This document shows, in pieces, positions 1-19,002 of a DNA stretch of 37,267 nucleotides. The notes beneath the pieces are model-generated. The model did no database searches, was not told the origin of the DNA, and saw nothing but the letters and a program-made list of their open reading frames with translations. The stretch's first letter is position 1. The number at the start of each line of letters is the position of its first letter. Made by a program: the position numbers and the translations under genes. This DNA is from a virus: positions 1-37,267 of the IMG/VR virus record IMGVR_UViG_3300046747_000355; one strand, 5' to 3'.

Positions 1-1988
1 GGGACGAGTCGTTCCAAGGATACTGGTGTGGCAACCGACCGATATGATCCGGCTTGTTCACCCTGCCTTTCTTCAGCTTGGCCCCATCCGTAGTCTCGGC
101 TGAATCGCTGATTGACCGCGCGGATCCGTGGGGCGAGTGTACTTTCAGCCCACCCAAGGATATCCCCGAATCCGGCGTCAATGGCCCTCGATCGATAACT
201 TTCACCGTTTGGGTTCTCCTTCCAGTCGTTGCTGACAATATTACCATCGGCAGCGAAGTGATGCAGTTCAGCTGTGCCATCGCCGAGCTTCTCGACCGCG
301 TCACGAACCATGCCATGCAGCTCGACATTTTTCAGCTGCGAGAGGTTCGCCGGCTTGATGACCCGAAACCCAGTCGCCGTATGGATCGGTGCCAGCAGTG
401 CCGATTCTTTGTACGATAGACCGGCGCGCTGGCCCATCTCCATCAGATCTTTGTAGAGCGATTGTGCCTCGCTGTGAGTGAGTCCGCGGCCGAGCTCGAC
501 GTGCATGCCGTTCGAGTCCCGCTTCGCGGCGCCCCAGAACGGCCGGTGCCACGCGACCGCGTCCTGCTTCAGCAGCGAGCCCATGATCGCGGAGTACACA
601 TCGGCGAGCGTACGCGTCTGATCGGACACCTTGTTCTTGGTGCCCATGCCCTTCGGTGGCGCCAACACTTCTGTTTGGCCGCCGTGACCGATGACGTCCG
701 CCCACGCGGCCGGACCGTCGATCGCGCCGTGCTGCAAGAGACCGAGCTGCAGTGCGAGCAGATCGTTGCCACGCTCGTCGGTCAACGCCATCGAGGTGGC
801 GAGCATATGCTCAGCCTTCTGATGCAGCGGTGCGCCGTGCGCGCCGGGCAGCTCGTCCGCATCGGTCGACGGGATTGCTTCCCACGAGACCTGTGCCATG
901 TGGTCTTTTAGGTTGGCCGCGAAGTCACGGCTCGACTTCGAGGCTTCCTGCGCACCGGCCGCCATCGCGTGCTGGTACATCATCTCGTTGTACGCGACCC
1001 GATCATCGACGATGAACTTGCGCCCGCCGCCCCTGACGTCTTCGTAGTGGGCGATGTCTTCATCGAGCGCGGTCTGATGTACGACGTCCTGCACGACATC
1101 TTGCCGTGCCTTCATCGCGACCCAGATCGCGGCCTGCACCTGTTGCGGCTCCCAGCCGAGTTTGTCGGAGAGTCGCATCGTCAATTCATGGGCAAACTTA
1201 TATTGCGCGCCACCGCTCGCGGTCTTGTCGTTGAAGTAGCCGAACGCGCGCAGCATCCAGACATCGATCGTGACACCCTGATCGTTTTTGATCTGCTCTT
1301 CGGTCATGCCGAACGTCGGATCGCGCAGCACCCGTCGCATCAGGTTGTTGTAGAAGTTCTGGACCTTCTCACCCGGCGGCAGCACGCCGCTGTTGAGCCA
1401 CTCGCGCGCGGTGTCATCGCGCAGCCCGGTGCCGGCGTCGATCGGCTCACCGGCACGCCACTGGTTCCACGCCTTGAGCGCCATCGTGGTGTTGGCAGAC
1501 ACCGCAGTGCCGGGCGAATAGATCGCGAGCATCCCGGCCAGTTTGCTGGACATCTCGGGATCGCCGCCGGTGGCCTGCAGGATCGCGTCACCGCTGTTCT
1601 CGTACCAGTAGCGACCGTACTCGCCTTCTTTCGCGAGCTTCGTCAACCGATTCATCAAACCATCGAGCCGGGTCTCCCCCGCTGGCGCGCCGCGGTACTG
1701 TCCCTTCATCGGGCCGCTGCGGTACTTCATGAGATCACCAGCGCGCTCGCGGCGGCTCAGCCGGGTCTCACCGATATCTTCAGGGCGCACCCCTTGTTTT
1801 TTCAGTTGGGAGATCATGTCGGCGCGCTCGTCTTGGAGCAGCGACAGATGTTCGTCGATGGCCGCTTTGGCTGCTTCGGTAGCGGTCTTACCGTCCTTGA
1901 TCAGCTCGTCTTGAATCTCGCGGATCGACTCAGCGTCGTCACCACTGAGCGCCTTGCCCGCTTTTTTAATGCAGGTAATCAGACTCAT
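1..1988 (-). CDS. Large polyvalent phage protein, C-terminus beyond left edge
   Basis: Reading the minus strand from the ATG at 1988 gives 662 codons without a stop, up to the window edge, so the gene is partial. The start overlaps the stop of the upstream 715-residue gene as ATGA. The N-terminus (MSLITCIKKAGKALSGDD) leads into a charged helical stretch. Around residues 120-290 there is YWYENSGDAILQATGG, then a segment about not exhausting targets (LAGMLAIYSPGT), then DVWMLRAFGYF and WEPQQVQAAIWVAMK. From memory, this order resembles a conserved region of large multi-domain phage proteins of unknown function. The rest is rich in charged residues with no catalytic motif that I recognise. It is probably a virion-associated or injected protein; that role is inferred from its place in the structural operon. 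Confidence 0.8.
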   Translation of the reverse strand, partial: MSLITCIKKAGKALSGDDAESIREIQDELIKDGKTATEAAKAAIDEHLSLLQDERADMISQLKKQGVRPEDIGETRLSRRERAGDLMKYRSGPMKGQYRGAPAGETRLDGLMNRLTKLAKEGEYGRYWYENSGDAILQATGGDPEMSSKLAGMLAIYSPGTAVSANTTMALKAWNQWRAGEPIDAGTGLRDDTAREWLNSGVLPPGEKVQNFYNNLMRRVLRDPTFGMTEEQIKNDQGVTIDVWMLRAFGYFNDKTASGGAQYKFAHELTMRLSDKLGWEPQQVQAAIWVAMKARQDVVQDVVHQTALDEDIAHYEDVRGGGRKFIVDDRVAYNEMMYQHAMAAGAQEASKSSRDFAANLKDHMAQVSWEAIPSTDADELPGAHGAPLHQKAEHMLATSMALTDERGNDLLALQLGLLQHGAIDGPAAWADVIGHGGQTEVLAPPKGMGTKNKVSDQTRTLADVYSAIMGSLLKQDAVAWHRPFWGAAKRDSNGMHVELGRGLTHSEAQSLYKDLMEMGQRAGLSYKESALLAPIHTATGFRVIKPANLSQLKNVELHGMVRDAVEKLGDGTAELHHFAADGNIVSNDWKENPNGESYRSRAIDAGFGDILGWAESTLAPRIRAVNQRFSRDYGWGQAEERQGEQAGSYRSVATPVSLERLV

Positions 1989-4132
1989 TCGAACCACTCC
2001 GGGGTCACGGTATCGAGGATAACGGCAAGAACGGCTTCATCTTCGGCCATAAGCTGACGACGAATCTCTGGTGGGTATGATCTATGCTTTTTGTGGTGAC
2101 CGCCATGGTGACCGTGGTGACCATGGCTGCTGTCACCGCCACCGGGCGGCGGTTCCGCCACCGGCGAACCTTCCGGCGGGATCAGAACGAAGATGCGTGA
2201 ATGCGTCAACTGGTCGTAGAGCACGCCGTCCAGTTGCTCCGACGCATACAGCCGCTGAATGAGGATGTTGTCGGGCGGCGGCGACGGTGGTGTCCATAGC
2301 AGCGCGCCTTGGTTCGCTCCTTGAACGACCGAATCGTATTGGGCCGGCCGGATGTCGTCTTGCGGCACCGTGGCAACACGTCGCACCGTGAGTTCGGCGA
2401 TCCGTGCGTTGTCGGGCGGCGGCGGAATCGACACATGCGAGTCGTACTGCGCCGGTCGCGTGTCGATCTGCGGGACCGACGCCACGCGGACGATCTGAAT
2501 GTTGATCGGCGGCGGGATGATTGGGAACACCGCACGCGCAAACATCTGACTGCTGTTGGTGTTCGGGTCGCTCTGCGGCGTCATCTGCACGCGCCGCTGC
2601 ATCAACTCCCATTCGAATTCCGCCGTCAGGCCGACGATGAGCGAGTAGTTCGTCGTGTCGTAAAGCTGCTCCTGCTGCAGCGGGAAATTCGTCGTGATGA
2701 CGTCAGGCTGTGGCTGTTGGAGGAACGACGGCGGCGGCTTGTGATAGATCCGCCCATAGCCGGGGTTCGACTTGATAACGAGTTCGTGCCCGCCGTATCG
2801 GTACTCCGCCTTACCGAACCAGTCAGAGAATGTGCCCGCCGCCGCCGATGCTGGCGGTGCGTGGTAGGTCGCTGAGTAGCTCGTGGTATCGAACGCCTGC
2901 GGTGGCGCGTTGACGCGTTCGATTTGCAGCGCCGCAGGCATCGCCGGCACGCCCGGCTGTTTGTGGTAGACCGCCGAATGGTCCGCAGTGTCGTACGCCT
3001 GCGGTGGCGCGTTGAGGCGCTGCGTGCTCTGTGCGAGCGATGGCGGCGCTGACGGCGCCGGTTGCTGCCGGAACACCACCGAGTGATCGGCAGTGTCGTA
3101 GTCCTGCGGCAAGCCGCGTACGGTGTTGACGACGATCGCGTCCGCCGGGCTGCCGGCAGGTTGCGGGAAGACCCCGCGCCAGATCGCCGACCGGTTGTCG
3201 GCGTTGCGCACGTGCAGCTCGTGCGTACCGAACTGCGTTTCCGCGCCGGCCGGCGTCGGTGGCGGCGTGATCAGGAACGCCGCACCTACGCGGATCGCAC
3301 CATAGCCGGCGCGGTTGGGCGCTTCCTGCTCAAAGGCGGCGATTGCCTTGCGCGGCCGCGGCACATGCCCCGGCATGACCGTGTGCACGCTGCCATAGCC
3401 GGCGCGGTTGGGCGCCTCCTGTTCCTGTACCGCGATCGAGTGCCGCGGTGGTGCCGTCGCTACCGCAGCGAATAGCGCCGCGGTGGCGGCGAGGATGACG
3501 CCGTAGCCGGCGCGCTCACGCCAGCTGCTGATGTTCTGCTCGTCGGCCGCGACACGCCCGCCGCCGGGAAATGCCGCCGGTACATCAACAATCTGCAGAT
3601 GCGAAAGGGCGGTGATATCACCGACGCCGAGTGCTGCCGGATCGCCGATGTCGATCTTGAATGTCGTCGTCGCGAACGTGTACGTCGCTTCGACGTTGTT
3701 GGTGACCCAGTCCGTTGGCGACGTGCGTTCGACGTCGGTCGCGTCGAACCAGTGCGAGCCGGCCGTTGCATCGAGGTAAGTGCCGGTGTGCAGCAACGTC
3801 GTGTTGTCGTAGATCCGATAACACTGGTTCAGCTTCGCGTAGTTGAAATCGCCGAGCGCGATGCGGATTTTGTAGGTGCCCGGCGCCGGCAGCTGCACGA
3901 TGAACTGGTTGGTCGCGACGTTGTCTTGCATGAACGCAAAACCCGCCAACCGGACGTCGGAACCGTTGTTCCGATCGCGATAGTCCAGATCAGACGTGCG
4001 CGCCCAACCGTAGCTGTTACCGTCGACCGGATGTGTTTGCGGGTAGGCGCTCTTACCGCCCCATAGCGCGCCGGCCCCGTCGGTGACAAAGCCGACGGTG
4101 TCGCGAAAGTTGTATTTCTGGTTAAACGACAC
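1985..4132 (-). CDS. Repeat-rich surface or tail protein with carbohydrate-binding-like N-terminus and His-rich tail
   Basis: This protein has 715 residues and a GTG start that overlaps the sulfotransferase stop by 11 bases. Residues 1-185 read as a beta-sandwich (YNFRDTVGF, then GYGW-like GWARTSDLDYRDR, then FIVQLPAPGTYKIRIALGD). This resembles the galactose-binding or malectin-like modules at the N-terminus of some polysaccharide enzymes, by pattern only. Residues about 200-300 hold three RAGYG units, two of them EQEAPNRAGYG. Residues about 340-620 hold about seven degenerate units built on Q-x-YDT-x-x-x-S, spaced 34-35 residues where clearest, with proline-rich linkers. Near residue 670 there is a His-rich run (HGHHGHHGGHHKKH) that could bind metal. 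I see no signal peptide. The position among host-surface genes suggests a tail appendage or adhesin; this is inference. Confidence 0.75.
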   Translation of the reverse strand: MSFNQKYNFRDTVGFVTDGAGALWGGKSAYPQTHPVDGNSYGWARTSDLDYRDRNNGSDVRLAGFAFMQDNVATNQFIVQLPAPGTYKIRIALGDFNYAKLNQCYRIYDNTTLLHTGTYLDATAGSHWFDATDVERTSPTDWVTNNVEATYTFATTTFKIDIGDPAALGVGDITALSHLQIVDVPAAFPGGGRVAADEQNISSWRERAGYGVILAATAALFAAVATAPPRHSIAVQEQEAPNRAGYGSVHTVMPGHVPRPRKAIAAFEQEAPNRAGYGAIRVGAAFLITPPPTPAGAETQFGTHELHVRNADNRSAIWRGVFPQPAGSPADAIVVNTVRGLPQDYDTADHSVVFRQQPAPSAPPSLAQSTQRLNAPPQAYDTADHSAVYHKQPGVPAMPAALQIERVNAPPQAFDTTSYSATYHAPPASAAAGTFSDWFGKAEYRYGGHELVIKSNPGYGRIYHKPPPSFLQQPQPDVITTNFPLQQEQLYDTTNYSLIVGLTAEFEWELMQRRVQMTPQSDPNTNSSQMFARAVFPIIPPPINIQIVRVASVPQIDTRPAQYDSHVSIPPPPDNARIAELTVRRVATVPQDDIRPAQYDSVVQGANQGALLWTPPSPPPDNILIQRLYASEQLDGVLYDQLTHSRIFVLIPPEGSPVAEPPPGGGDSSHGHHGHHGGHHKKHRSYPPEIRRQLMAEDEAVLAVILDTVTPEWFE
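2155..3530 (-). repeat. Coding repeats: RAGYG units and YDT units
   Basis: Inside the 715-residue gene, three RAGYG-encoding copies lie near 3300-3335, 3396-3432 and 3506-3530. YDT/S-encoding copies lie near 3080-3100, 2975-2998 and 2870-2895, with weaker ones down to about 2190. Copies are clear in protein but diverged in DNA, which suggests old duplication kept by selection rather than recent slippage. Confidence 0.65.
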
Positions 4133-4661
4133 GTGCGGTCAACCGGAGTGCCGTGTCGGCCGCGTAGTAGGTGCGCAGTTCGGTGATACGGTACGTCGTG
4201 TCGACGACGAGCGGCCGTGACTGGTGAAAGTGATTGATGCCGGGGATCAGCGTCGGCAGCTGTTCGAACTGCCAGATTTCCGTTGGCTGCACCAACGCCT
4301 CGTCGATGATCGTCGCTTGCGGTAGCCAGTGTGGATCCACCGGCAGGAACGTCGGTTCACCGACGACACGCCCGCCAAGGCGCGTCTGGTTGTTGTAGTC
4401 GGAGCCCTTCGGCTGATCGAGGATGCGATCGATCCACGCTTCCCATGTGGGGGCGTAGCGTGAGTCGTTCGGGTATTTGTGAAAGAACTGGTACCCGCTC
4501 TGACAACGTGCCAGAGGGGTGCGGACGAACGCGACGACGCGCGGATAGTTCAGCGCGACGTCGCGCGGTGTTAGGTGAGTACCGCTGGCGATCGACTCGC
4601 TACCGCACCGAGGGATCGCGAGCACCGCGAAGTCTTGATGCCGGTAATAGAAATTGTACAT
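4122..4661 (-). CDS. Sulfotransferase (PAPS-dependent, Sulfotransfer_2-like)
   Basis: This 179-residue protein would move a sulfate group from PAPS to an acceptor, probably a sugar hydroxyl. Residues 16-24, IPRCGSESI, match the 5'-phosphosulfate loop (usually IPKTGSTSI). Residues 45-57, FVRTPLARCQSGY, match the 3'-phosphate motif (usually V-R-x-P-x-x-R-x-x-S-x-Y). Residues about 109-115, DPHWLPQ, match the conserved H-W-x-P-Q of carbohydrate sulfotransferases, and the end (LRTYYAADTALRL) resembles the family's Y-x-x-D close. The protein is short for the family. The usual loop lysine is replaced by Arg18. It starts one base after the upstream stop and overlaps the next gene, between two proteins that look carbohydrate-related. 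The acceptor could be host capsule/LPS or a virion glycan; the sequence does not decide. Confidence 0.8.
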   Translation of the reverse strand: MYNFYYRHQDFAVLAIPRCGSESIASGTHLTPRDVALNYPRVVAFVRTPLARCQSGYQFFHKYPNDSRYAPTWEAWIDRILDQPKGSDYNNQTRLGGRVVGEPTFLPVDPHWLPQATIIDEALVQPTEIWQFEQLPTLIPGINHFHQSRPLVVDTTYRITELRTYYAADTALRLTARVV

Positions 4662-4662
4662 T

Positions 4663-6378
4663 TCACGGCGTAACGGTCACGTGCAGACACGGATAGAACC
4701 GCACCCCGTCCGATGTCGTGTGGATCTGTTCGGGTGCGCGCCATTCGAGCTTCAGCTCACCGGCTTGATCCATCTCGATGAGGAGCGGCCCAGCCTTGCG
4801 CGCTTTAACGGTGATCGTTTTCACGCCGGGGTTGTCGGGTCTGGTGTAGTCCACTTCGTGTGGCTGCACACCGCCAGTTCCGTCATCCGGCAGTCGTTGC
4901 CAGAGTCCACCCGGGGCGGACTCGTAACAGTGAAAATAATACCCATGCGCGCCGTTGGGTTCGGTGTCGGGGAAGAACTTGAGCGTGTAGGTGGTGTTGA
5001 CCCCAACCTGTATGGTGTCCGGCCCAACGAGCTCGAACTGGGGCGTGATCTTGCACACCTCGAACGATTGCATCGGGATCATTTGCAGGTTCATCAGGTC
5101 TGCGTTGTCGTAGCGGTCGTCGCTGATGCCGGTGAGGAACCCCATGCCACCGATGTCGTCGTTGATCAGGCCGTAGTTGCGCATGCAGTCGAGGAACACG
5201 CGAGCGTGGGTACCGACCGCGAACTGCGGGAGTGCCTTCAGTCGGTCGTACTCGGACAGTCTCAGCCGCAGCCGGGTACCGTATGCCAGCCCGTCGGTGC
5301 TGCTGCCGTCTGTCGTGCCGTGGCGGGCAGGGTAGACATAGCGATTCCGTTGGGCACCGACGTTGAGCGTAATGCAGAGCGGGTGGTGGATCGCGCCCGA
5401 CATCACCTCGTCGTAGGTCGCCATCTGCGGTAGGCGCGGTACGCCACCAGCGGTCGACGACGTCCAGCCATCCCAGCGCGGCTTGCCGTTGATTGCGAGT
5501 TCGCGGGGGCCGCTGTTGCCACCGTTGGACTTGATGCCCCACCACGACAGTTGGGCGCATGACCACTTGCCGGCATTGAGCATGGGCGAGGCGATCTCGA
5601 ACAGCTCATCGATCTCTCCGGTTGTCTCGTTGCGGACGTAGATCAAGCAGTGGTGGTCGTCGTGGTTGCCGTAGTCGGACGGCGGCTTGTCGCTCGGCCA
5701 CCCCTCGATGGACGGGTTTGACGGCATCGGCACATTTACTGGGTCGGACTGGTCGGCGTACTGCGTCACCGTCATCGCCACACGAGGGGTATCTCCGCGC
5801 ACGATGTTGTACGGGATGCCGAAGATCTTGCCACCCGTGTTCGAGGTGACGTTGCCGTTGTCGTCGCGGATGCGCCCGTCACCGTAGCCGGCACCGAAGA
5901 AGTCGATGTGGATGTTGGCACCCCCAACGAGTGACATCAGGTGCGCAGAGTTCGGGTCCACCTCGTCCTGCACGACGGGGCGCAGGACCTCCTGCCAGTA
6001 GGGGGTCGCCGCATCCGGTAGATGACCGTTGAGTGACGGTCCCTTACGCACGAGGCCGTTGGGTCCACCGATGGCCGAGCCTCCGATCTCCATGAATCCA
6101 GTCGGATCTGGCGGCGGATCCGGTGGGTCGACGGGGTCCGGCGGGTCAACCGGCGTGCCGGCCAGCGCGGCGACGTCGGTGCGCAACTTCTCCATCCTCA
6201 TATCGTTCTGGTCGAGGATGTCGGCCTGCGCCTGTACGATCAGCGCGTCGACCGCTGCGGGGTCGATCCCGCCAGTAGTCGGCGGCACTGCTTCCAACCG
6301 CGCGATTTCGCTCACCGCTGCCTCCACGGCGGCACTGTTCGCCGCCGCCGCCTTCGTTGCGTCGTCAGATACACTCAT
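4663..6378 (-). CDS. Virion or host-surface protein, shares C-terminal region with the beta-helix protein
   Basis: This protein has 571 residues from the ATG at 6378, which has GAGGG eight bases upstream. An alternative ATG at 6432 overlaps the previous stop as ATGA and would add 18 residues; given how common that coupling is here, it is not excluded. Residues 1-90 are helical and Ala-rich, followed by a proline linker (PVDPPDPVDPPDPPPDP). Residues about 115-571 align by eye with the last roughly 440 residues of the gene at 8098-11868. Shared points are DHH-x-x-I-x-x-RNE-x-TG, WTS-x-x-A-G-x-PRLP, YDE-x-x-x-G-x-x-x-HPL, R-Y-x-x-PARH, MRNYG and NGAHGYY. A similar His/Arg-rich region occurs, from memory, in bacterial secreted proteins of unknown activity. 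The Ig-like final 100 residues end in DGVRFYPCLHVTVTP. Confidence 0.75.
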   Translation of the reverse strand: MSVSDDATKAAAANSAAVEAAVSEIARLEAVPPTTGGIDPAAVDALIVQAQADILDQNDMRMEKLRTDVAALAGTPVDPPDPVDPPDPPPDPTGFMEIGGSAIGGPNGLVRKGPSLNGHLPDAATPYWQEVLRPVVQDEVDPNSAHLMSLVGGANIHIDFFGAGYGDGRIRDDNGNVTSNTGGKIFGIPYNIVRGDTPRVAMTVTQYADQSDPVNVPMPSNPSIEGWPSDKPPSDYGNHDDHHCLIYVRNETTGEIDELFEIASPMLNAGKWSCAQLSWWGIKSNGGNSGPRELAINGKPRWDGWTSSTAGGVPRLPQMATYDEVMSGAIHHPLCITLNVGAQRNRYVYPARHGTTDGSSTDGLAYGTRLRLRLSEYDRLKALPQFAVGTHARVFLDCMRNYGLINDDIGGMGFLTGISDDRYDNADLMNLQMIPMQSFEVCKITPQFELVGPDTIQVGVNTTYTLKFFPDTEPNGAHGYYFHCYESAPGGLWQRLPDDGTGGVQPHEVDYTRPDNPGVKTITVKARKAGPLLIEMDQAGELKLEWRAPEQIHTTSDGVRFYPCLHVTVTP

Positions 6379-6428
6379 AGGATCGCCCTCGTGAAGCGGT
6401 GTCGCGCTGCCAGAAACGCCGCTGCCGA

Positions 6429-6899
6429 TCATTCTTCCCAAGTAACGCCGTAGCTCGACAGCGACGCTTCCGCACCGGCGATGTTGCCGCAAGCGATCTG
6501 GTTGTACGCGGTACCGAGCGCGCCGCCCGTCACCATCCACTCGCCGCCGATCGGCAACACGATCACGCCGCCGCCGCCGAGTGAGTTCCAGTCCTGCGCG
6601 TGCAGCGCCACCGGATCCGCCGCCAGCGTCGCCTGCGTCGCGTAGGTGTTGACCGTGGCAATCGCTGTCGTGCCGGGGTTGGTGGAACCTTGGGACAGCG
6701 CCGTCGGCGTTGCCGGCGTGTTGTTCACGCGGCCCCAACGGGTGCGATAACCGGTCGACGTGGTCGAACGTCCGCCCCACGTGATCATTTTGACTTTGCC
6801 GATCTGACCCGCGGTCAGAACTGTCAGCACCCAGTTGTCCGCCTGCGTCGCGTGCGCGACTGGTGTGAACGAACCCCGTTGAACCGAATACTGAGACAT
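6429..6899 (-). CDS. Unknown structural-type protein
   Basis: This is a 156-residue protein with a strong Shine-Dalgarno (CAGGAG, eight bases before the ATG). It is rich in Gly, Thr and Ala, with beta-type patterns (MSQYSVQRGSFTPVAHAT, then GGGGVIVLPIGGEWMV). There are no catalytic motifs, signal peptide or membrane segments. It sits between a small zinc-binding protein and the paralogous surface protein, inside the host-surface module. I do not recognise a family; a minor virion or decoration role is possible. Confidence 0.7.
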   Translation of the reverse strand: MSQYSVQRGSFTPVAHATQADNWVLTVLTAGQIGKVKMITWGGRSTTSTGYRTRWGRVNNTPATPTALSQGSTNPGTTAIATVNTYATQATLAADPVALHAQDWNSLGGGGVIVLPIGGEWMVTGGALGTAYNQIACGNIAGAEASLSSYGVTWEE

Positions 6900-6921
6900 G
6901 CAAACGCTCCTGAAGGCCTAG

Positions 6922-7227
6922 TTAGATTCCCGCCACGCGCCGATACTGCGCGCGTCGCTCCGCTTTTTCTAGCTGTTGGTGCAGCCAGTCTTCAAAAGGC
7001 AGACACTCTGCCCCCTTGAAAATCTTCATCGCGCAACCGTCGCACAACGGTCGGTGACATCTGCCGCCACATATGGCGCCGTCCTTCGACCACTGCTGCA
7101 TCATCAGCACTTTCTGGCAGTGGCTACACGTCTGCACGTCGGCCTGCAGCAGCTTGCCGCCGGACGCTTGATCGTCGTTGCGGTAGTAGCCGGCGCCTTT
7201 GGTGTATGGGGTGATGATCGCGACCAT
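6922..7227 (-). CDS. Small zinc-binding protein
   Basis: This 101-residue protein has three Cys pairs: CSHC, then CGGRC, then CDGC. That pattern suits one or two structural zinc sites. The start MVAIITPYTKGAGYYRNDD and the C-terminal helix (FEDWLHQQLEKAERR) match, as far as I recall, a small phage protein family with the same cysteine spacing. TGAGGT lies just upstream of the ATG at 7227. Role unknown; zinc-ribbon proteins of this size often act as adaptors. Confidence 0.7.
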   Translation of the reverse strand: MVAIITPYTKGAGYYRNDDQASGGKLLQADVQTCSHCQKVLMMQQWSKDGAICGGRCHRPLCDGCAMKIFKGAECLPFEDWLHQQLEKAERRAQYRRVAGI

Positions 7228-7236
7228 TGGTTTACC

Positions 7237-8097
7237 TCACGGAAGTATGTAGATCCGATTGCCTTGGTTGACCGCGGTGGATGCCTGCGCGGTTGAAAAC
7301 TCGACAGTCACGCCGTTGCCGTTGGCAGTCGTGCTGTTGGTGTTGATCGTTTCCAGATTACCCGCGAGATTCACCCCGAACACAGTCGCGGCGGTTTTCA
7401 GCTGTGCCGCACAGACGATGTTACTGGCGCCCGTCGTCTTGACCGCGTTGCCCGCCGCCGTATAGCCGCCGCTAACGTCGTTAGAGGTGAACGTCCAGCC
7501 CGCGCCGGTCGTCGCCTTGGCACTGAACTGCATCGCGAAGCCGCCACCAACGACCGTCAACGCCGGGTAGTTCAGCTGCGTTGCACTTGAGATATTGTCT
7601 TCGCTCGATGACAGCACTCCGTCGCCATCGGCGGCGATCGTCGGGAAGATCCCGCCGGTGATGTCGAGCACGGTGATAAACGCGCCGCCTTGCGCGATCG
7701 AGGTATTGAAATTGACGGTGGGCGTGGGTTCCGCGGCTTCGCCGTTTTTGATCCAGACCGAACTGAGCCAACTGGTCGAATACTTCTTCGCGAGGAAGTA
7801 CGTCGCGCCGGTGACGCTCGATATGGTCGGTGTCGCCGTCGACATGCCGACGAACATGACGACCAACTTGCCGAGGCAGTTCGAAATCGGCGGAACCGGC
7901 GTGAGCGACGTGACCGCGCCGCCGGTGACCCCGGTACCAATTGAATTGATCGTGACGGTAGCGAGTTCGATGCGCAGCCGGCGCGTTGGCCGGCAGTACG
8001 GACGGAACGGTTTGTGCCGCAGCCAGAACGGCGACTGCCAGCGCAGACTGGTGCGCTTGTCGAAGAAACTACCGGCCGGGCGGGCGATGTCAGCCAT
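7237..8097 (-). CDS. Unknown beta-rich structural protein
   Basis: This is a 286-residue protein whose ATG directly follows the stop of the beta-helix gene (TGAATG on the minus strand). The first 45 residues are basic (RLRIELA after an Arg-rich stretch). The rest is Thr/Ser/Gly/Ala-rich beta sequence, such as LVVMFVGMSTATPTI and GAFITVLDITGGIF. I see no catalytic signature. Composition and position suggest a tail or surface protein. Similar beta-sandwich proteins of about 200 residues occur in prophages, but I cannot name a family. Confidence 0.7.
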   Translation of the reverse strand: MADIARPAGSFFDKRTSLRWQSPFWLRHKPFRPYCRPTRRLRIELATVTINSIGTGVTGGAVTSLTPVPPISNCLGKLVVMFVGMSTATPTISSVTGATYFLAKKYSTSWLSSVWIKNGEAAEPTPTVNFNTSIAQGGAFITVLDITGGIFPTIAADGDGVLSSSEDNISSATQLNYPALTVVGGGFAMQFSAKATTGAGWTFTSNDVSGGYTAAGNAVKTTGASNIVCAAQLKTAATVFGVNLAGNLETINTNSTTANGNGVTVEFSTAQASTAVNQGNRIYILP

Positions 8098-11000
8098 TCA
8101 GTTTGCGGTCACCGAATAATATGGGTACGGACCCCTCACACCATCCGTCGTCGTGTCGAGTGTCACTTCATCGGTCCACGCTAATTTTTGTTCACCCGCT
8201 TGGTCGACTTCGATCACGTACTGCCCCGGACTGGGCGCTACGAACGTGAAGTGGGGATCTTGATTTGATCCCACCCCCGGCGTGAGGGTGATGTAATCGA
8301 GTTCGTGCGGCAGCACGCCAGAACTTCCGTTGTCAGCGATGCGCGCCCAAGTGACGCCGTCAGGGTTTTTCTTGTACGCGTGCAGATAATACCCATGCGC
8401 GCCGTTTTGTTCCACGGCCGGGTTGTACACCATCGTGTAAGTGTTAGTCGCGCCGGCCGTCACTGTCGTCGGTCCGGTTACCCGGAACTGCGGCGTCATC
8501 GTCAGCACTTCGAACGCGGTGTTGGGTATGTTCTGTAACGACAGCAGGTTGGCGTGGTTGAAACGGTCGTCGCTGACGCCCATTAAAAAGAGGTTTCCGC
8601 CAATGTCAGTGTTCATCACACCATAATTTCTCATGGCTTCAACGATGATCCGCGCGCAGCCGGTGAAATCGTCTTTGTGCGCGTTGTAGTACGTCGAGGT
8701 CAGGCGCATCCGCGCACCGAACGGTAAGCCATCGCTGCCGCTCGCCGCGTGTCGCGCCGGCCATAGGTACCGCGACATCACGTTGCCTTCGCTGAACGTC
8801 ATCGCGAGCGGGTGCCGCATGACGCCGGCGGCACATTCGTCATAGCGCGGAATCAACGGCAGCCGCGGCAAGCCGGCGGCGTCGGTCGACGTCCAACCTT
8901 CACGTCGCGGTACTCCATCCGGCGTGAACAGCGACACTTGTCGCGCGTGCCAAGTGGTGCCGTCCCAGTAGGGTTTCGAGAGTTCGTATAGATTGCCCGC
9001 GCCGCCCGTCGCTTCATTGCGTTGGACGATGAACATATGGTGGTCGGTGGATTCGCTGGCGGTGATGTCCGCCAGCGTGATGTTGGTGTTGTTCGGCGCG
9101 GCCCCGATCACGTTGCCCGCGGTGTAAATCCAGCCTTCAACCGCCGGCTTGTTCGGGATCGGAATTGCGAGCGGCGCGTCGGATTCGTTCGGGTAGCCAT
9201 CGGGTACGTCGACCATATAGGTCGACGCGGTGCCGGGCACGGTGTTGATCGGCAGCCCCCAGTACGGCGCGTCATGGTCCGGTGTATCGCCCGCGAAGAA
9301 ATCGGTGTGAACGCTAAGCCCGTTAAAGCGCGCGATCAGCGCCGCCGACTTCGGATCGACGGTGTCGGAAAGCACGGTGCGGCTCAACTCGGCCCACAGC
9401 GGTCCCTGACTATCGAACATGCCGTGGCTGTGAAAGTCCGGCGTGGTCTTATGCGGTGCTGTCGAACGGTATCCCGAGTCGCCAATCTCGATCGGCAGCG
9501 ACGCCACATTGAGCGCGCCTAAGCTTGGCGTGACGACATCTCGCGTTACGCACACCGCGTCGATCGCCGAACCTTTCAGATCGAACGTCGCGCACGGATA
9601 AGTGATCCCGGTGTACTGCGGATAATCGGTGGTCGACAGCAGTGTCAGCGACAACGGTATGCCGCCGATCGCGCCGGGCGAACCGACTTGCAAGCCGAAA
9701 TCTGCCGGTACGACGATCCGGTTCGTCGAATTCGGACTCGTCATCTTGGCGCCGGTGCCGACGGTCGTCGACGTCGCGATCGTGTCGTGCGTGCCTTTGC
9801 AATAACCGTACGGACTGTTGACCGTCGCGACGTTGAGGTTGGCGCCGACGTTGAGATTTTCACCCGCGGTGAGCACGCCCGACGCGCCGGTGAAGCTGAG
9901 TTTGCCCGACGCAGTGCCGGCGGCGAATGAGCCCCCGGTGACGGTGACCACCGACAACACGCCGGTTGCACCCGACGTCGCGCCGGTGATCGTATCGCCG
10001 ACGAGCATGACGTAGGTGCCGCCCGAGGTGTACGAAACGGTGACCCGCGGTATGGCGTTCCACTGGTTGTAATCGAACGTCGGCGGCGTCAACTGGGGAG
10101 GTACGCAGGCATCCGGCCCCGGCGCCGGTGAGCCACCGGTACCACCGGCGAGCGTCAGATCAGTTTGAAAAATGTTGTCTTTGAACTCAAACGCGTTGGT
10201 GGTCGGCAGACTCGCCATGCTGATGACGGTACCGAACGCATTGAAACAGCTGTTGTTGTAGATCCGCCCGGATTGAATTTCCGCCGCGGAGCCAAAGCCA
10301 CCGAATTCGAAGCACCCCATCGTGCCCGTCAGCATGTTGCCGCGGGCGATAAAGTCCGTTAGCGCGACCTTTTGCGCATTGGCGCCGGCGCCGAGGTTTT
10401 CGTATGTGAAGACGATGCCACGACTGCGATATACCTGCTGCCCTGCATCGGCGAAACCGCCGCCGTAACAGAGGTTATATTCGACCACGATGTCGTCGCC
10501 GTCGTCGCCGTAGATACACGGGCGGTTTGACTGAATATCGCCGATCCGGTTGCCGCGGATGATGATGCCCTTGGCACCGTAAAATGGTTGAATGCCGCCG
10601 CCATACGACTGCGCGAGGTCGTTGCCCTCGATCAGATATCCCATGAATTGCAGCGTATGGGCGTTGCTGAGGGTCACCGCTGCCGGGTTCGCCGCACTAC
10701 AGCTGACGCCACAGTTGTCGGGGAAACCGATCGTCGCGATGTGGCGGAAGACCGAATCACGCAGCGTCATGTACTGCGTCAGGTAGAACCTGACCGCCGA
10801 GTTGAGGGTGCGGTCGGTGTACACCCGCTTGACCATGATGTCGTGATACAGCGGTACGTTGGTGTCGACCAGAATGCCGTAGCCGGCGGAACCGTAAATC
10901 TTGAGATCTTGAAACGTGATGAAGTTGGCATGCGCCTCCACCAAGCCGCGGTTCCACGTTTGCGGTACCTGTGATCCATCCGTCGCGTCACCCGGATAAA

Positions 11001-11868
11001 TGCCACCGGGGTGCGTGGCGTCATTGGTGCGACGAATGCAGAGCGGATCGTCCCATGCGAGTGTTTCGCAAGTGCCGTCGATCTGCGGAATCGTCACGTT
11101 GTAGGTGTACGCGGTCGGCCATGCCGTGGGGTTGATCGGGGTGTTCTGATATGCCACGCCACCCGACACGTAGTAGCTGCCGACGACGACGGGATCGGCT
11201 GTGGTGCCGTTCCAATCGATGATCAGCTGCTGATTGGCGCACGCGGCGGTGCCGCCTTTGATCCAGACGTCGACACTGGTCAAGTTGACGGTTGAATTGA
11301 CCTTCGCGAGCGTGCCCCACGGTGATAAGTACGACGTGCCGTTGTTGCTGTCATAGCCATGGGTCGGGTCGCTGATGCCGCCGTTGGTGCAGTCGACGTA
11401 GTAGCCGACCGCCGGCACCGGGCTGGGGCCGCCGCTACCGATCTGCCAGTTGAAGGTGACCGAATTGGAGCCTGAGGTATTGGTCGCGGCGCAGCTGGCG
11501 GTCAGGGTCGCGGTCTGTAGATTCGTGCACTGGTAAACGCCGGTCTTGACGTCCTGCAACGTGCACTGCGCTGGCATCACGCTCGCTGAATAGTTCGGGT
11601 TGCCGACGGCAGAACCCTGCGACGTGGTGGCAGGTAAATAATAGAAGCAGTTGAACGTGCGGTTGTCGCCTACGTTGTTGGTGAGCGCAGGCGGCGTACC
11701 GTGTGCCGGTGTAGGAGCGAATAGACCGGTATCACCGGTCACCGGCATCGCTTCGTCGGGAACCTCGACGACGGGCACCGGCAGTGTGAATGTTGGCTCG
11801 TCGGCGTGCCGGGGTAAGCCGGAACAGCCAGCGAGGAACGCAAGCAGCAGGACGGCGACGCGCTTCAT
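8098..11868 (-). CDS. Lipoprotein-signalled right-handed beta-helix protein (tailspike or lyase-like)
   Basis: This protein has 1256 residues and its start overlaps the previous stop as ATGA, so the start is well supported. Residues 1-20 form a lipoprotein signal: MKR, a hydrophobic run, then the lipobox LAGC-S. Residues about 60-150 are Ig-like. From about 160, YYVDCTNGG and SYLSPWGTLAKV open a right-handed beta-helix of the pectate-lyase/polysaccharide-degrading type, running to about 590 (FITFQDLKIYG, IIIRGNRIGDIQ and similar turns). Around 620-690 is a VTGATSGATGV module also found in the tail hub. Residues about 815-1256 are shared with the gene at 4663-6378. Known beta-helix phage proteins are tailspikes, but those lack export signals. 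Either the protein is anchored on the host surface or it is a virion protein with a misleading N-terminus. Confidence 0.8.
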   Translation of the reverse strand: MKRVAVLLLAFLAGCSGLPRHADEPTFTLPVPVVEVPDEAMPVTGDTGLFAPTPAHGTPPALTNNVGDNRTFNCFYYLPATTSQGSAVGNPNYSASVMPAQCTLQDVKTGVYQCTNLQTATLTASCAATNTSGSNSVTFNWQIGSGGPSPVPAVGYYVDCTNGGISDPTHGYDSNNGTSYLSPWGTLAKVNSTVNLTSVDVWIKGGTAACANQQLIIDWNGTTADPVVVGSYYVSGGVAYQNTPINPTAWPTAYTYNVTIPQIDGTCETLAWDDPLCIRRTNDATHPGGIYPGDATDGSQVPQTWNRGLVEAHANFITFQDLKIYGSAGYGILVDTNVPLYHDIMVKRVYTDRTLNSAVRFYLTQYMTLRDSVFRHIATIGFPDNCGVSCSAANPAAVTLSNAHTLQFMGYLIEGNDLAQSYGGGIQPFYGAKGIIIRGNRIGDIQSNRPCIYGDDGDDIVVEYNLCYGGGFADAGQQVYRSRGIVFTYENLGAGANAQKVALTDFIARGNMLTGTMGCFEFGGFGSAAEIQSGRIYNNSCFNAFGTVISMASLPTTNAFEFKDNIFQTDLTLAGGTGGSPAPGPDACVPPQLTPPTFDYNQWNAIPRVTVSYTSGGTYVMLVGDTITGATSGATGVLSVVTVTGGSFAAGTASGKLSFTGASGVLTAGENLNVGANLNVATVNSPYGYCKGTHDTIATSTTVGTGAKMTSPNSTNRIVVPADFGLQVGSPGAIGGIPLSLTLLSTTDYPQYTGITYPCATFDLKGSAIDAVCVTRDVVTPSLGALNVASLPIEIGDSGYRSTAPHKTTPDFHSHGMFDSQGPLWAELSRTVLSDTVDPKSAALIARFNGLSVHTDFFAGDTPDHDAPYWGLPINTVPGTASTYMVDVPDGYPNESDAPLAIPIPNKPAVEGWIYTAGNVIGAAPNNTNITLADITASESTDHHMFIVQRNEATGGAGNLYELSKPYWDGTTWHARQVSLFTPDGVPRREGWTSTDAAGLPRLPLIPRYDECAAGVMRHPLAMTFSEGNVMSRYLWPARHAASGSDGLPFGARMRLTSTYYNAHKDDFTGCARIIVEAMRNYGVMNTDIGGNLFLMGVSDDRFNHANLLSLQNIPNTAFEVLTMTPQFRVTGPTTVTAGATNTYTMVYNPAVEQNGAHGYYLHAYKKNPDGVTWARIADNGSSGVLPHELDYITLTPGVGSNQDPHFTFVAPSPGQYVIEVDQAGEQKLAWTDEVTLDTTTDGVRGPYPYYSVTAN

Positions 11869-12185
11869 AGCGTGATGCTCTTGGTGCCGCGCTCAACGAC
11901 GCCGGTGTTCGAATGCAACAGATTCCACGTGATGGTGTAGCTGCCCGCCGGCCCTGACGGAATGAATCGACCGCCCGGGAACTCCGCGAGCGTCAGGCGA
12001 CTGTAGGGATCGAACCACCACTTATCTGCAAACACGATGTCGGAGCGGCCCGCGAAGACGCCGTTAGGATCAGCCGCGGGGCCATAGCCGAGGTCTTCGT
12101 TAGCGGGCCCGAAGATCCGCACGAACGCATCCGTTCGTACGGGTTGCCGCTTGTTGATAATCCGGGTTTCGAAGAACGATCTCAC
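11865..12185 (-). CDS. Unknown small protein (106 residues)
   Basis: The GTG start at 12185 overlaps the upstream stop as GTGA, which ties its translation to that gene. The sequence is a beta-type single domain (DAFVRIFGPANEDLGYG, WWFDPYSRLTLAEFPGG, AGSYTITWNLLHSNTG). It lacks signal peptide, membrane segments and catalytic motifs. The SYTITW ending suggests an Ig-like or jelly-roll fold. It may be a tail adaptor, judged only from position between the ejection cassette and the beta-helix gene. Confidence 0.7.
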   Translation of the reverse strand: MRSFFETRIINKRQPVRTDAFVRIFGPANEDLGYGPAADPNGVFAGRSDIVFADKWWFDPYSRLTLAEFPGGRFIPSGPAGSYTITWNLLHSNTGVVERGTKSITL

Positions 12186-12649
12186 TTTGCAGGCCCACTT
12201 ACTCGGGTGGATACGACCTCTTTCAAGAGCCCATTCGGTGCGCGATCGGTGAAGTCGTGCACGATTCGGATGCCGTTAAAATTCGATACCACGCGCTCCA
12301 GCATCTTAGTTTCTGAATCACGCTCGATGGTGTGCACGACGCGCTTTGGATAAACGACCCCGGCTTTTTCCTGACCCACCGCTGCGAGCTGGGCGATGGT
12401 GCCGCGGTTTGCTCGCGAACGAATGGTCTCCAACGAGGCCGCGTACGCCGTGGTGCCCTCGTCAGCGGCTGGCTCTGGTGCCGGCGCTGCTTCTGCTACG
12501 GGCTCTGCTGCCGGTTCTGCCGTTGCCTCGACTACCGGCTCGGGCGGCGGCGGCGGCGGCGGCGGTGTCAGCTCGGGATCGGCCGACCCGGCGATCGAGC
12601 CGCCTTGCTTCTTAAGCTCAGCGAGTTGCGCCTTGGTCATCTTCTTCAT
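12182..12649 (-). CDS. Unknown protein with polyproline segment
   Basis: This is a 155-residue protein. I place the start at the ATG at 12649 because it overlaps the stop of the 1143-residue gene as ATGA; a GTG at 12655 would add two residues. After a basic start (MKKMTKAQLAELKKQGG) come eight consecutive prolines and an Ala/Glu/Pro-rich linker, encoded partly by a run of CGG triplets near 12540-12563. Residues about 90-155 form a compact basic domain (VVYPKRVVHTIERDSETKM). The function is unknown; the linker suggests a flexible arm on an assembly. Confidence 0.75.
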   Translation of the reverse strand: MKKMTKAQLAELKKQGGSIAGSADPELTPPPPPPPPEPVVEATAEPAAEPVAEAAPAPEPAADEGTTAYAASLETIRSRANRGTIAQLAAVGQEKAGVVYPKRVVHTIERDSETKMLERVVSNFNGIRIVHDFTDRAPNGLLKEVVSTRVSGPAK

Positions 12650-15600
12650 AGGCACGCCTTCAGCTGACGAATTACGCTCATGCGTTTGTCGAGCTGCCGC
12701 AGCGCGATGTGCGCTGGCTCTTTGATGTTGACGATTTCACCGGTCTCAGCAACCTGCACTTCCGACTCGACGTGCAGCTTCTCGATCGGTTTGCCTTTCA
12801 GGGACCGCGCGGCTTCGCGCAGCAGCGCGCGGATGTCGCCGTCAGTCCACTCATGCACCACACCCATTTTGCGGAGCTGATTACGCACCCAAGAGTAGAC
12901 CCTTTGCAAGACATTATCGGGGTCACCGCGCTCCGACAGGTGCGCCATGAACTCCTCGGTGGCTTCCCGGCGGCCGGCATCGGTCGTCATGTCGAGCTCG
13001 TACTTGTCACCGATGTCGTGGATCTGCGCTTTGTCGCCGCCTTCGTAGACGCGGTCCAACAGATTGTCTAAGACGCGTTCGTCGCCGCCGGTCAGCACCC
13101 GCAAACCGTGGTGCGTCACGCCCTCGTGCAGCACGGCCTGCATCACCTCTTTCGGCGTCGCGTGGTTATCCGCGAAGACGTGCACTTCACCGTTGTGATA
13201 GATGCCGTTGAGGTCTTCGTACTTCTTGCCGAGCCGGTCCAGCGCCGCCTGTAGCTTGGCCGGCACAGCGTCTTTACGGGTGACGCGCGCTCGCAGCGCC
13301 GGCATCGCTTTATTGGCGGCGCCGACGACCTCGTCCGCGCGGTTCTCTTCGCGGCGGCGGGCTTGGATCGCTTCCGGCGAGTCAACCCACTTCTGCGTCT
13401 TCTTGTCGAAGACCTTGCCCGGCACCTCGATCCAGCGTTGCCGCAGGGTGTCGAACATCTTGGTCGCGGTCGGGGTGTTCTCTTCACCCTTTGCGTACGA
13501 GTAGCGGGTCACCCCTTTGTCGCGTCGTGGGCGGCGCGTAGCGGCCCGCTCTTCGAGGTGGGCTGCCTCTGCCGGGCTGACGACGTGATGTGGCGCTGGT
13601 GTCTCGGGATGTAGCCCAACGTCCTTGTTACCCTTGGTCAGCGCCCACTCTTTGAACTCGGCCGCCGACATCTCGGTAACTTTGCCGACCGGATGCCCTT
13701 TCGGGTAATTCGCTTTGTACGCCCGGATCGCTTCCAGATTCGAATGGAAGCCGATCATCGCCTTGTGTTCGTCGAACGCACCGGTTGATGGATCCACCGC
13801 ATCAACCACGAACACCCTATCGCTGGTCGGATCCGGGCCGAGGAAGGTGTCGAGCTTTTCCTTTGGCCCCTCAGCAGAGTCGGTCAGGCGAATGTAGCCG
13901 TAGTGGTTGCGCATCTTCTGCGACCACGCATTGCCGAGCTTATCGACCCCTTTACGAATCGAACCGGCCGCGTTTTCGATCGAGATACGAAGACCGTTCC
14001 ACGTCGCGTGGCCTTTCTGGTAGTTGCCGGCTTCCGCCTGCGCGGGCGTCGCTTCGTGGCCCCCCGCTTGCTCGGCGGCCGTGTCGATCGCCGCGGTCTG
14101 CGCTTCCTTCTTCGCTGCAACTTCTTCAGCGGTCGGCAGCCGTTTCAGCTGGAAGCCCGGCGCACCGGGTTCTTCCTCTTCAGTGATTGCCGGCACTTCT
14201 TCCTTGCCGACGGGTGCAGCTTCAGGTGTCTCAGCTCGGTTGCCGCGCGCCGCGCGCTCGGCGCCGAAATACGGGGACCCGGGCTGCTCGCCGGGTTGTA
14301 CCTGCACCGCTTTTGCTTCCGCGGCTTTCTGCTCAGCCGCGAGCTTCTCTTCGTGCGATCGCACCACCTCGGACGGTTTGTACCCGGCCGCGATCATCGC
14401 CCGCGCCATGGCCGGGTTGATCGGGCGCTCGCCTACGGCTTTAGCCGCGGCCTCCTGCGCGGCGGTCTCGGTTTCCGCAGCCGCGAGTCCGGGTGCTTCT
14501 TCGGCGTTGCGCTGCGCGACCGTGCGGGCGCCATACATCTGATCCGCTTCCGCGGTCGCGATGTCACCGGCAATTCGCTGGCGCGCCTCGTCTTCACGTT
14601 GCTGGTGCGCGAGGTCGACTTCACCTTGGAGTTTGCCGGGCTCGGTGCCGGTGCGCTCCATCTCAGATAACGTCTCGTTGGCAATCTGCTCGTCGAGCAG
14701 CGCCTGCTGATCAGCATCACTGGTGCGATCGAGAGAGGTGTTGAGTTTCGCGAACTCAAGCACGACACCTTGTGCCGCGTGCAGCTGATCGAGTGAGTCG
14801 CCGCCCGCCTCGGCCGCTTGTTTGCGGGCTGCCTCTTCCATCTCGGCAGCCATCTTCAACAGATCGGTCTGCTGACCTTGCTGGCGCTGGAACTCTTTCT
14901 TGCCGCGGTACGCGCCCGGGCCGCCGAGCAGCAGGCCAACACCGAAGTTGGTGAGCCCTTCTTTCCCGAGCTCCAGCAATCCTTCGGGGGTCGCCATTGC
15001 CGACATGGCGTCCTTAAACGAAGCGCCCGGCTTGAACAAACCGGCGTCGAGACCGGTTGCAAGGATGTGTGACGTAACACCCGCACCGGCCTGACTGAAG
15101 CCGGTCTTCATCAGGTTCTTGATGAACGATGGCCCGACAACCTCGCCGAGCAGACCGGGGATCGGCGCTGCATACGGTGCAGTGGTTGCGAGCGTCAATA
15201 TCCCTGCACGATCGGCCGCGGTCTCTTCGTCGAGACCCATCTCGCGGCCGTCAGCGAGCATGTCGCCGTACTGCTGCCCTCCCAGCACACCCATCGTCAG
15301 CGCCGTACTGACGAGACCCGCGCCGCCCGGCACTTCGCTCACAACCGCACCGAGGCCGAGCGCGGGTGCGAGCGTCAGACCCATCTCGGTGATCTTGCCG
15401 AGCCAGTTCAGTGTCTGTTCGTTCTGCTGCGCGTAACGCCCAGCTTCCTTGCTCTTTTGCAACGCCGCCTGATAGTCCGGATCGCCGAGAATGTCGGCAT
15501 CACGCCGCTGACGCTGATCAGGGCGCATCTCGGCGAGCCAGTCCCCGAGTGTGCTCGGCCGTGTTTTCGGCAACGGCTGCGGGCTAACGAGATCACTGAG

Positions 15601-16077
15601 GGAGGAGGGTTGCTCAGGAGCCTGCTGGTGCACCATCACCGGCACACGGCCGGGCAGCACCTCCATCGCATCCGGTCGCGACTTGATGTCGTCGATCTGA
15701 CTCTGATCTAGGTACTTGTCGACCCCGAACTGGGTGCCGAGCCGCAGCTTGTTGCGGATCTCGTAATACGCTTGATCCCAGCGTGCGCCTGACGCATGGA
15801 ACGCCGCACCCATCTGATCCAGCGGACCCATGTCGGTACGATCGGGCGCTTTGCTGGCGTCGAGGTAGTCGTCGATCTCGGGCGTGCGCCAGTAGCTCGG
15901 TGACTCCTGCGCCGGGGGTGGCGCTCTCCCCTCAGCGGGAATGTTGGTCAACGGCGGCGGCGTATCGACGGTCGACGCAGCAGCCGGCGCAGGCGTGACC
16001 TGTCCCTCATCGTCGGACGACGCCCCTAGGTAGGCTTCAACCTCGGGCGTACGCCAGTATGCTGAGCTGTTAGCCAT
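12646..16077 (-). CDS. Large internal-virion/ejection polyvalent protein with InPase-like and HExxxH peptidase-like regions
   Basis: This protein has 1143 residues; its start overlaps the upstream stop by eight bases (ATGGCTAA). The N-terminus carries the same motif twice, about 55 residues apart: AYWRTPEVEAYLGAS and SYWRTPEIDDYLDAS. Residues about 230-330 contain hydrophobic helices (LTLAPALGLGAVV, GILTLATTAPYA), as in ejection proteins that cross membranes. Residues about 390-620 are Ala/Glu-rich coiled coil. Residues about 684-800 (NYQKGHATWNGLRISIENA, KMRNHYGYIR, DRVFVVDAVDP, DEHKAMIGF) match the pyrophosphatase-like domain known from large polyvalent phage proteins. Residues 984-989 are HEGVTH in HEGVTHHGLR, the HExxxH variant seen in such proteins, with a candidate third ligand at E1041/E1042. 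The protein is probably injected with the DNA; activity is inferred. Confidence 0.85.
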   Translation of the reverse strand: MANSSAYWRTPEVEAYLGASSDDEGQVTPAPAAASTVDTPPPLTNIPAEGRAPPPAQESPSYWRTPEIDDYLDASKAPDRTDMGPLDQMGAAFHASGARWDQAYYEIRNKLRLGTQFGVDKYLDQSQIDDIKSRPDAMEVLPGRVPVMVHQQAPEQPSSLSDLVSPQPLPKTRPSTLGDWLAEMRPDQRQRRDADILGDPDYQAALQKSKEAGRYAQQNEQTLNWLGKITEMGLTLAPALGLGAVVSEVPGGAGLVSTALTMGVLGGQQYGDMLADGREMGLDEETAADRAGILTLATTAPYAAPIPGLLGEVVGPSFIKNLMKTGFSQAGAGVTSHILATGLDAGLFKPGASFKDAMSAMATPEGLLELGKEGLTNFGVGLLLGGPGAYRGKKEFQRQQGQQTDLLKMAAEMEEAARKQAAEAGGDSLDQLHAAQGVVLEFAKLNTSLDRTSDADQQALLDEQIANETLSEMERTGTEPGKLQGEVDLAHQQREDEARQRIAGDIATAEADQMYGARTVAQRNAEEAPGLAAAETETAAQEAAAKAVGERPINPAMARAMIAAGYKPSEVVRSHEEKLAAEQKAAEAKAVQVQPGEQPGSPYFGAERAARGNRAETPEAAPVGKEEVPAITEEEEPGAPGFQLKRLPTAEEVAAKKEAQTAAIDTAAEQAGGHEATPAQAEAGNYQKGHATWNGLRISIENAAGSIRKGVDKLGNAWSQKMRNHYGYIRLTDSAEGPKEKLDTFLGPDPTSDRVFVVDAVDPSTGAFDEHKAMIGFHSNLEAIRAYKANYPKGHPVGKVTEMSAAEFKEWALTKGNKDVGLHPETPAPHHVVSPAEAAHLEERAATRRPRRDKGVTRYSYAKGEENTPTATKMFDTLRQRWIEVPGKVFDKKTQKWVDSPEAIQARRREENRADEVVGAANKAMPALRARVTRKDAVPAKLQAALDRLGKKYEDLNGIYHNGEVHVFADNHATPKEVMQAVLHEGVTHHGLRVLTGGDERVLDNLLDRVYEGGDKAQIHDIGDKYELDMTTDAGRREATEEFMAHLSERGDPDNVLQRVYSWVRNQLRKMGVVHEWTDGDIRALLREAARSLKGKPIEKLHVESEVQVAETGEIVNIKEPAHIALRQLDKRMSVIRQLKACL

Positions 16078-18573: not shown

Positions 18574-19002
18574 TCAGTTGAACAACAGGTACGACCCACC
18601 GCGCCGGTTGAACCCGAGCAGCTCCATCAGCTGCAAGGTCCGCTCGCCTAGATCCTCATCCGGCGAGAAGCCCGCCACGCGGATACCGCGGCGGTCCTTC
18701 AACCAACGCTTGAACGTGCGAACCAACGACACCCCTTTACCCGCTCGTTCACTCCACCACAGCAGGATATTCGCATGCCGGCGCTGTGCCCAGAGATTGT
18801 CGGAGACCATTGCCAGCAGTACCCCTCGAACGACGTCATGCTCGGTGCAGATCCAAGCGAAGTGCGACGGCGCGCTGATCAGCTCGATGAGCACCACACG
18901 CATGCGATCCCGATCCGGCCGCAACGGGTACCCCGCAGCGAGATGCAGTGCGATCTGCATCAGTTGCTCGATGTCATCCAGTTTTGCTGGGCGCAAGATC
19001 AC
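18574..19002 (-). CDS. GNAT-family N-acetyltransferase-like protein
   Basis: This is a 142-residue protein with a GTG start overlapping the previous stop as GTGA. MILRPAKLDDIEQLMQIALHL is a classic GNAT N-terminus (beta1-alpha1). The central strand HDVVRGVLLAMVSDNLW fits beta4, and ILLWWSERAGKGVSLVRTF fits the acetyl-CoA loop region, although the R/Q-x-x-G-x-G/A motif appears degenerate (R-A-G-K-G). The end, GERTLQLMELLGFNRRGGSYLL, matches the usual late GNAT signature. It sits inside the ejection cassette. Substrate unknown; it may modify a virion or host protein. Confidence 0.75.
   Translation of the reverse strand: MILRPAKLDDIEQLMQIALHLAAGYPLRPDRDRMRVVLIELISAPSHFAWICTEHDVVRGVLLAMVSDNLWAQRRHANILLWWSERAGKGVSLVRTFKRWLKDRRGIRVAGFSPDEDLGERTLQLMELLGFNRRGGSYLLFN

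Follow-up and report, generated by a model that had tools for sequence, protein, structure and literature searches.

A large phage protein with a lipoprotein signal and a signal-less sister of its module in the same tail-fibre island

The tail-fibre island and the start of P0001

The window (the whole stretch of DNA analysed here, 37,267 bases) is an IMG/VR record with matches to SU10-like portal, terminase and major head proteins, and its source is an uncultured podovirus-like phage. It was compared with five related IMG/VR contigs found via the portal protein. The gene order from the small terminase to an InPase-domain protein (12646-16077) is kept in the related contigs that cover those regions, most fully in contig G003, and the N-terminus of the G003 protein lying beyond that phage's fibre genes is matched by the window protein at 1-1997. 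Both border proteins are large; the domain of the former is inorganic pyrophosphatase-like, and the G003 protein matched by the latter has an LPD39 domain. No homologues common to window 1998-12655 and G003 37.2-41.1 kb were detected, and it is in this variable island that the gene studied here, P0001, is located. The features are as follows.

1998-12655, minus strand: variable tail-fibre island including P0001, bordered by the conserved InPase-domain protein (12646-16077) and the conserved protein at 1-1997
4663-6378, minus strand: 571-aa paralogue with a helical N-terminus, a proline linker and then the module in common with P0001; no signal
8098-11868, minus strand: P0001, whole open reading frame, 1256 aa, ATG at 11868 and stop at 8098
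11865-12185, minus strand: 106-aa gene directly upstream of P0001, translationally coupled to it
11865-11868, minus strand: ATGA overlap of the P0001 start with the stop (TGA) of ORF 11865-12185, seen in the sequence
11824-11868, minus strand: lipoprotein signal, residues 1-15, MKRVAVLLLAFLAG followed by C, with LAGC and S at +2, by the strict lipobox rule
11407-11823, minus strand: proline-rich linker, then a small beta-rich, cysteine-rich segment, residues 16-154, read from the sequence
10099-11406, minus strand: probable right-handed beta-helix with an entry cap, about residues 155-590, from a sub-threshold Pfam hit, rung motifs and a cap match
9472-10098, minus strand: glycine/threonine-rich region between helix and module, residues 591-799, read from the sequence
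8503-9450, minus strand: module core, residues 807-1122 (about 315 residues), with DHH, GWTSTDAAGLPRLP, YDE and PARH motifs
8101-8496, minus strand: Ig-like C-terminal domain, residues 1125-1256, also in the paralogue, Z about 7 to Ig-like folds

Several other genes of the window and its relatives have features of their own. The 715-aa protein encoded at 1985-4132 contains the short repeated motifs NRAGYG and QxYDTxxYS and gave no family match. A sulfotransferase reading of window 4122-4661 received no support from Pfam. The tail-fibre island of the related phage G003 has a sulfotransferase-family gene (L097:19199-20000, Pfam E 2e-21), which is adjoined by a small signal-bearing gene. Within the virion operon of the window, a small gene at 18574-19002 reads like an acetyltransferase (GNAT) and is kept in two related contigs at 46% and 40% identity.

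The start of P0001 had been placed by the sequence-only reading through ATGA coupling, and this placement holds, as its ATG and the TGA of the upstream gene share bases. Overlaps of this type occur at three successive junctions of the operon. Apart from the start itself there is no in-frame ATG, GTG or TTG within P0001 before codon 31, and the next in-frame ATG is codon 41.

The signal and domains of P0001

Residues 1-15 of P0001 read MKRVAVLLLAFLAGC, in which K2 and R3 are followed by an unbroken hydrophobic core and by LAGC with C15, and S16 comes next. In the published description, the lipobox follows the consensus [LVI][ASTVI][GAS]C, and few phage genomes are said to contain lipoprotein genes (PMC6139136). 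All the sequence features of a signal peptidase II substrate, namely an N-terminal basic residue, a hydrophobic core and this consensus, are found in P0001. Signal prediction, proposed as a check by the sequence-only reading, was run with lipobox rules, and P0001 passes both a PS51257-type rule and stricter ones. Among random N-termini of the same composition as the phage, 15/300,000 pass the strict rule and 268/300,000 the PS51257-like rule; for internal windows of the phage proteins, the corresponding figures are 1/8,824 and 6/8,824. As random N-termini and internal windows so rarely pass, the lipobox is not expected by chance, and the earlier identification of a lipobox signal in residues 1-15 is thereby confirmed. 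P0001 is the sole passer among 27 operon genes tested, the other 26 failing. It also contains 21 cysteines, compared with 0-3 in most proteins of the operon.

Beyond the signal, the make-up of the protein is mixed. Residues 16-154 gave no family match, and no conventional tail-anchor family was matched ahead of the helix, where an undescribed anchor is possible. Residues from about 155 to 590, roughly one third of the protein, probably form a beta-helix. Pfam Beta_helix aligns with residues 399-488 below its cut-off (E 0.019), residues 291-590 contain 7 rung-like motifs compared with 2.2 in shuffles (7/2000 shuffles reach 7), and an exported beta-helix protein from an Acidobacteriota genome (L108; E 1.1e-4 for one of 199 genomes) resembles the region where the helix begins. 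As such, the description of P0001 as a large beta-helix protein is probable for this stretch, at lower strength than the signal given the sub-threshold hit, and it does not extend to the C-terminal part, since about 450 residues there are module and not helix. AlphaFold, run on residues 1-835 with no relatives in the input, returned a pLDDT of 31. Residues 591-799 gave no match, and no catalytic family was found anywhere in P0001. A model of the module matched solved structures through the Ig-like end only (Z about 7, the Ig-like fold being a common arrangement).

The C-terminal region of P0001 (module and Ig-like end) is repeated in the 571-aa paralogue at 38-44% identity, and the two modules are sisters in the tree with support of 100/100. 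Their genes lie 1.7 kb apart in the same tail-fibre island. Full-length relatives of P0001 were found neither by tblastn in isolate phages and plasmids, nor in IMG/VR pattern scans and the related contigs found via the portal, nor in 597 sampled genomes of two phyla. These searches accordingly yielded no orthologue in which the signal is kept, and no homologue beginning after it, the refuting case named in the sequence-only reading.

The module in bacteria and in other phages

The module shared by the two phage proteins belongs to a family recognisable by the motifs GWTSADAAG, RYDE and PARH. Patterns made from the two phage copies alone did not open this family; adding Streptomyces-group members did, and the alignment used for the genome scan comprised the phage copies plus three such members. 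At least 529 loci matched; the best 80 (L016-L095) are spread over numerous bacterial phyla, with one archaeal MAG among their sources. The module is not represented by any Pfam or NCBIfam family. An HMM built from bacterial members only gives 168.5 bits for P0001 and 171.8 bits for the paralogue, and P0001 resembles the bacterial members both in this profile match and in being a signal-bearing carrier protein. Export signals, called by a simple rule-based predictor applied alike to control ORFs from the same loci, are present in 62/76 bacterial module ORFs compared with 76/255 controls, and lipoboxes in 25/76 compared with 6/255. Many of the bacterial members are lipoproteins, and the positions invariant in 50 aligned members are all present in P0001. 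In contrast to them, P0001 adds a probable beta-helix as well as the Ig-like C-terminal domain, which is seen here only in P0001 and its phage sister.

Phage copies other than these two are scattered at several places among the bacterial ones in the tree, some on long branches. In isolate phages, distant copies are found in Gordonia phage proteins (Guacamole gp30 and relatives; PHROG 17388), several of which carry the annotation of minor tail protein. Like P0001, these are encoded with tail genes; unlike P0001, they are without a signal and have N-terminal tail domains of their own, and they have lost part of the module's motif set. A Microcystis phage protein similarly has a distant copy, the architecture of the paralogue and no signal. 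Because the module occurs in the Gordonia minor tail proteins and in this Microcystis phage protein, the product of 4663-6378 is plausibly a virion adhesin of the tail.

In uncultured phage contigs from IMG/VR, module copies occur both with Sec signals and without them. In contig G613, the virion genes are followed at 19.6-28.5 kb by four adjoining genes whose products have Sec-like N-termini (L113; L122-L123), the third being counted by reading its downstream ATG, and one of the four encodes an SGNH/GDSL-like domain resembling a Klebsiella phage SGNH hydrolase. At 16-25 kb of contig G614 (L116; L124-L125), several signal-bearing genes are clustered with Ad3- and Hc3-like connector genes, and one of them encodes a beta-helix protein (Pfam Beta_helix E 6e-8). 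The signal predictor does yield false positives, because one flagged ORF of G614 is the Ad3-like connector itself. In contig G616, an 847-aa module protein (L121:4996-7539) has a hydrophobic, signal-like N-terminus, and its gene follows and overlaps a conserved phage gene (PHROG 1732) and is itself upstream of a major tail protein gene. Signal-bearing module copies beside phage connector or major-tail genes are established for G614 and G616. With signal-bearing genes also in G613, G614 and G616, export signals in tail-gene regions are not limited to this window. A further protein of 1774 residues (L120:4687-10011) has no signal and combines the module with a phage tail repeat and a stretch that reads like beta-helix.

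Export, possible function and rival explanations

The sequence-only reading took P0001 to be exported and lipid-anchored, and suggested polysaccharide degradation or receptor masking as possible roles; this interpretation is partly supported. Independently of the signal itself, the exported module family, the 21 cysteines and the Sec-signal copies in other phages speak for export and anchoring, and the signal-less copies in the sister, Gordonia and Microcystis phage proteins speak against a simple version of the reading. Since most bacterial members of the module family are exported, often as lipoproteins, and some other phages have copies with Sec signals, export and lipidation of P0001 are probable. 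Its gene would be expressed late, along with those of the virion; the product would pass through Sec, receive its lipid at Cys15 and be cut by signal peptidase II, so that the mature form would be anchored in the host envelope. In hosts following the Lol rule, Ser at +2 would direct it to the outer membrane; that P0001 is in the outer membrane, sorted by Lol and exposed at the surface is assumed here. As its likeliest use, anchored P0001 may then bind, occlude or trim the surface structure recognised by the phage's own tail, and infected cells and debris would stop adsorbing sibling virions (superinfection exclusion).

The start, the lipobox, the paralogous module and the place in the variable island are read directly from the sequence; lipidation, the face of the membrane, a glycan target, masking and a virion adhesin role of the signal-less sister are inferred. 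Because a sister copy of the module lies in the same island, our best guess, although a doubtful one, is that P0001 masks a receptor or excludes superinfecting phages: known exclusion lipoproteins are small, and the signal-less sister indicates that the module is also used outside an export context. The explanation as a whole, in which lipid-anchored P0001 blocks re-adsorption via a module shared with the tail-fibre island, is put forward tentatively.

The main rival explanation makes P0001 a normal tailspike or fibre of the virion whose hydrophobic N-terminus is unprocessed, being either left over from a captured bacterial lipoprotein gene or used in virion assembly. The position of the gene among tail-fibre genes agrees with this, as do the signal-less modules of the Gordonia minor tail proteins and the paralogue and the make-up of the L120 protein. 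However, the lipobox still satisfies the strict rules and shows no trace of decay, a working signal would take P0001 out of the cytoplasm, where virions assemble, and the helix is not preceded by a conventional tail-anchor domain; we regard this explanation as unlikely. An exported surface enzyme or adhesin, acting on the cell's own or neighbours' glycans before lysis or altering the host in a resident phage rather than acting against superinfection, is a similarly unlikely reading. It draws on the likeness of the helix entry to an exported bacterial protein and on the module being an exported bacterial domain, and beta-helices are frequent in exported polysaccharide-active proteins. Against it, no catalytic family was found in P0001, and a module that recurs in another protein encoded in the tail-fibre island suggests a role at the structure to which the phage itself adsorbs. 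P0001 could also have both roles, being exported and lipidated and joining virions only at or after lysis, or bringing membrane lipid along with it. In its favour are the runs of signal-bearing tail-like proteins in G613 and G614, which may have a reason in common, but we know of no precedent in tailed phages, and we consider this quite improbable.

Two further explanations were considered. If the true start were downstream, for example at codon 41, the signal would never be translated, and the ribosome-binding site of the assigned start is indeed weak. This is very improbable, as ATGA coupling is usual at the neighbouring junctions, G+C at third codon positions is high already from the first codons of P0001, and a start at codon 41 would separate P0001 from the upstream gene by 117 bases in an operon whose genes overlap closely. 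A lysis role is also disfavoured and can hardly be credited, even though the best-known phage lipoproteins are spanins (PMC6139136). Spanins are short periplasmic proteins or, when unimolecular, have a second, C-terminal transmembrane segment, whereas P0001 has 1256 residues and no second hydrophobic segment (nothing else above KD 1.23); moreover, no i-spanin partner was recognised and the gene lies in the tail-fibre region.

The proposed lipid-anchored masking by P0001 can be compared with systems already described. T5 Llp is a superinfection-exclusion lipoprotein that acts from the periplasm, its gene being adjacent to and downstream of that for the receptor-binding protein pb5, and exclusion lipoproteins are likely to be common beside tail-tip genes (PMC9586334). 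Similarly, Rtp45 blocks LptD (PMC12685063). P0001 shares with T5 Llp, T1-type Cor and Rtp45 a phage-encoded lipobox signal and a gene in the region of tail adhesin genes, but those proteins are small; P0001 has 1256 aa and a probable beta-helix, and its module has a further copy in a protein that lacks a signal. It likewise resembles phage beta-helix tailspikes and depolymerases in its probable beta-helix and in the place of its gene, among the tail-fibre genes of a podovirus-like phage. It differs from them in starting with a lipoprotein signal and linker rather than a virion-anchor domain, with no tail-anchor family match and no recognised catalytic family. Phage lipoproteins are already known; what is new is such a large one, in a phage that also encodes a sister copy of the module.

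The module represents a widespread exported domain without a Pfam or NCBIfam entry, which phages appear to have acquired repeatedly. A broader possibility, which we think rather unlikely, is that diverse uncultured phages export proteins of the tail-fibre region, by Sec or as lipoproteins, to serve at the surface as decoys that are independent of the virion but have modules in common with its adhesins. The present phage, with a lipidated copy of the module beside a signal-less one, would then be the clearest case, and G613 and G614 would be further ones. The exclusion lipoproteins known so far are small, each plugging a single receptor. If the masking explanation is true, this phage instead places on the infected cell a copy of a module that is related to its own means of attachment. 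Superinfection exclusion would then reach as far as glycan-binding phages, and the export signals on some tail-region genes would be accounted for.
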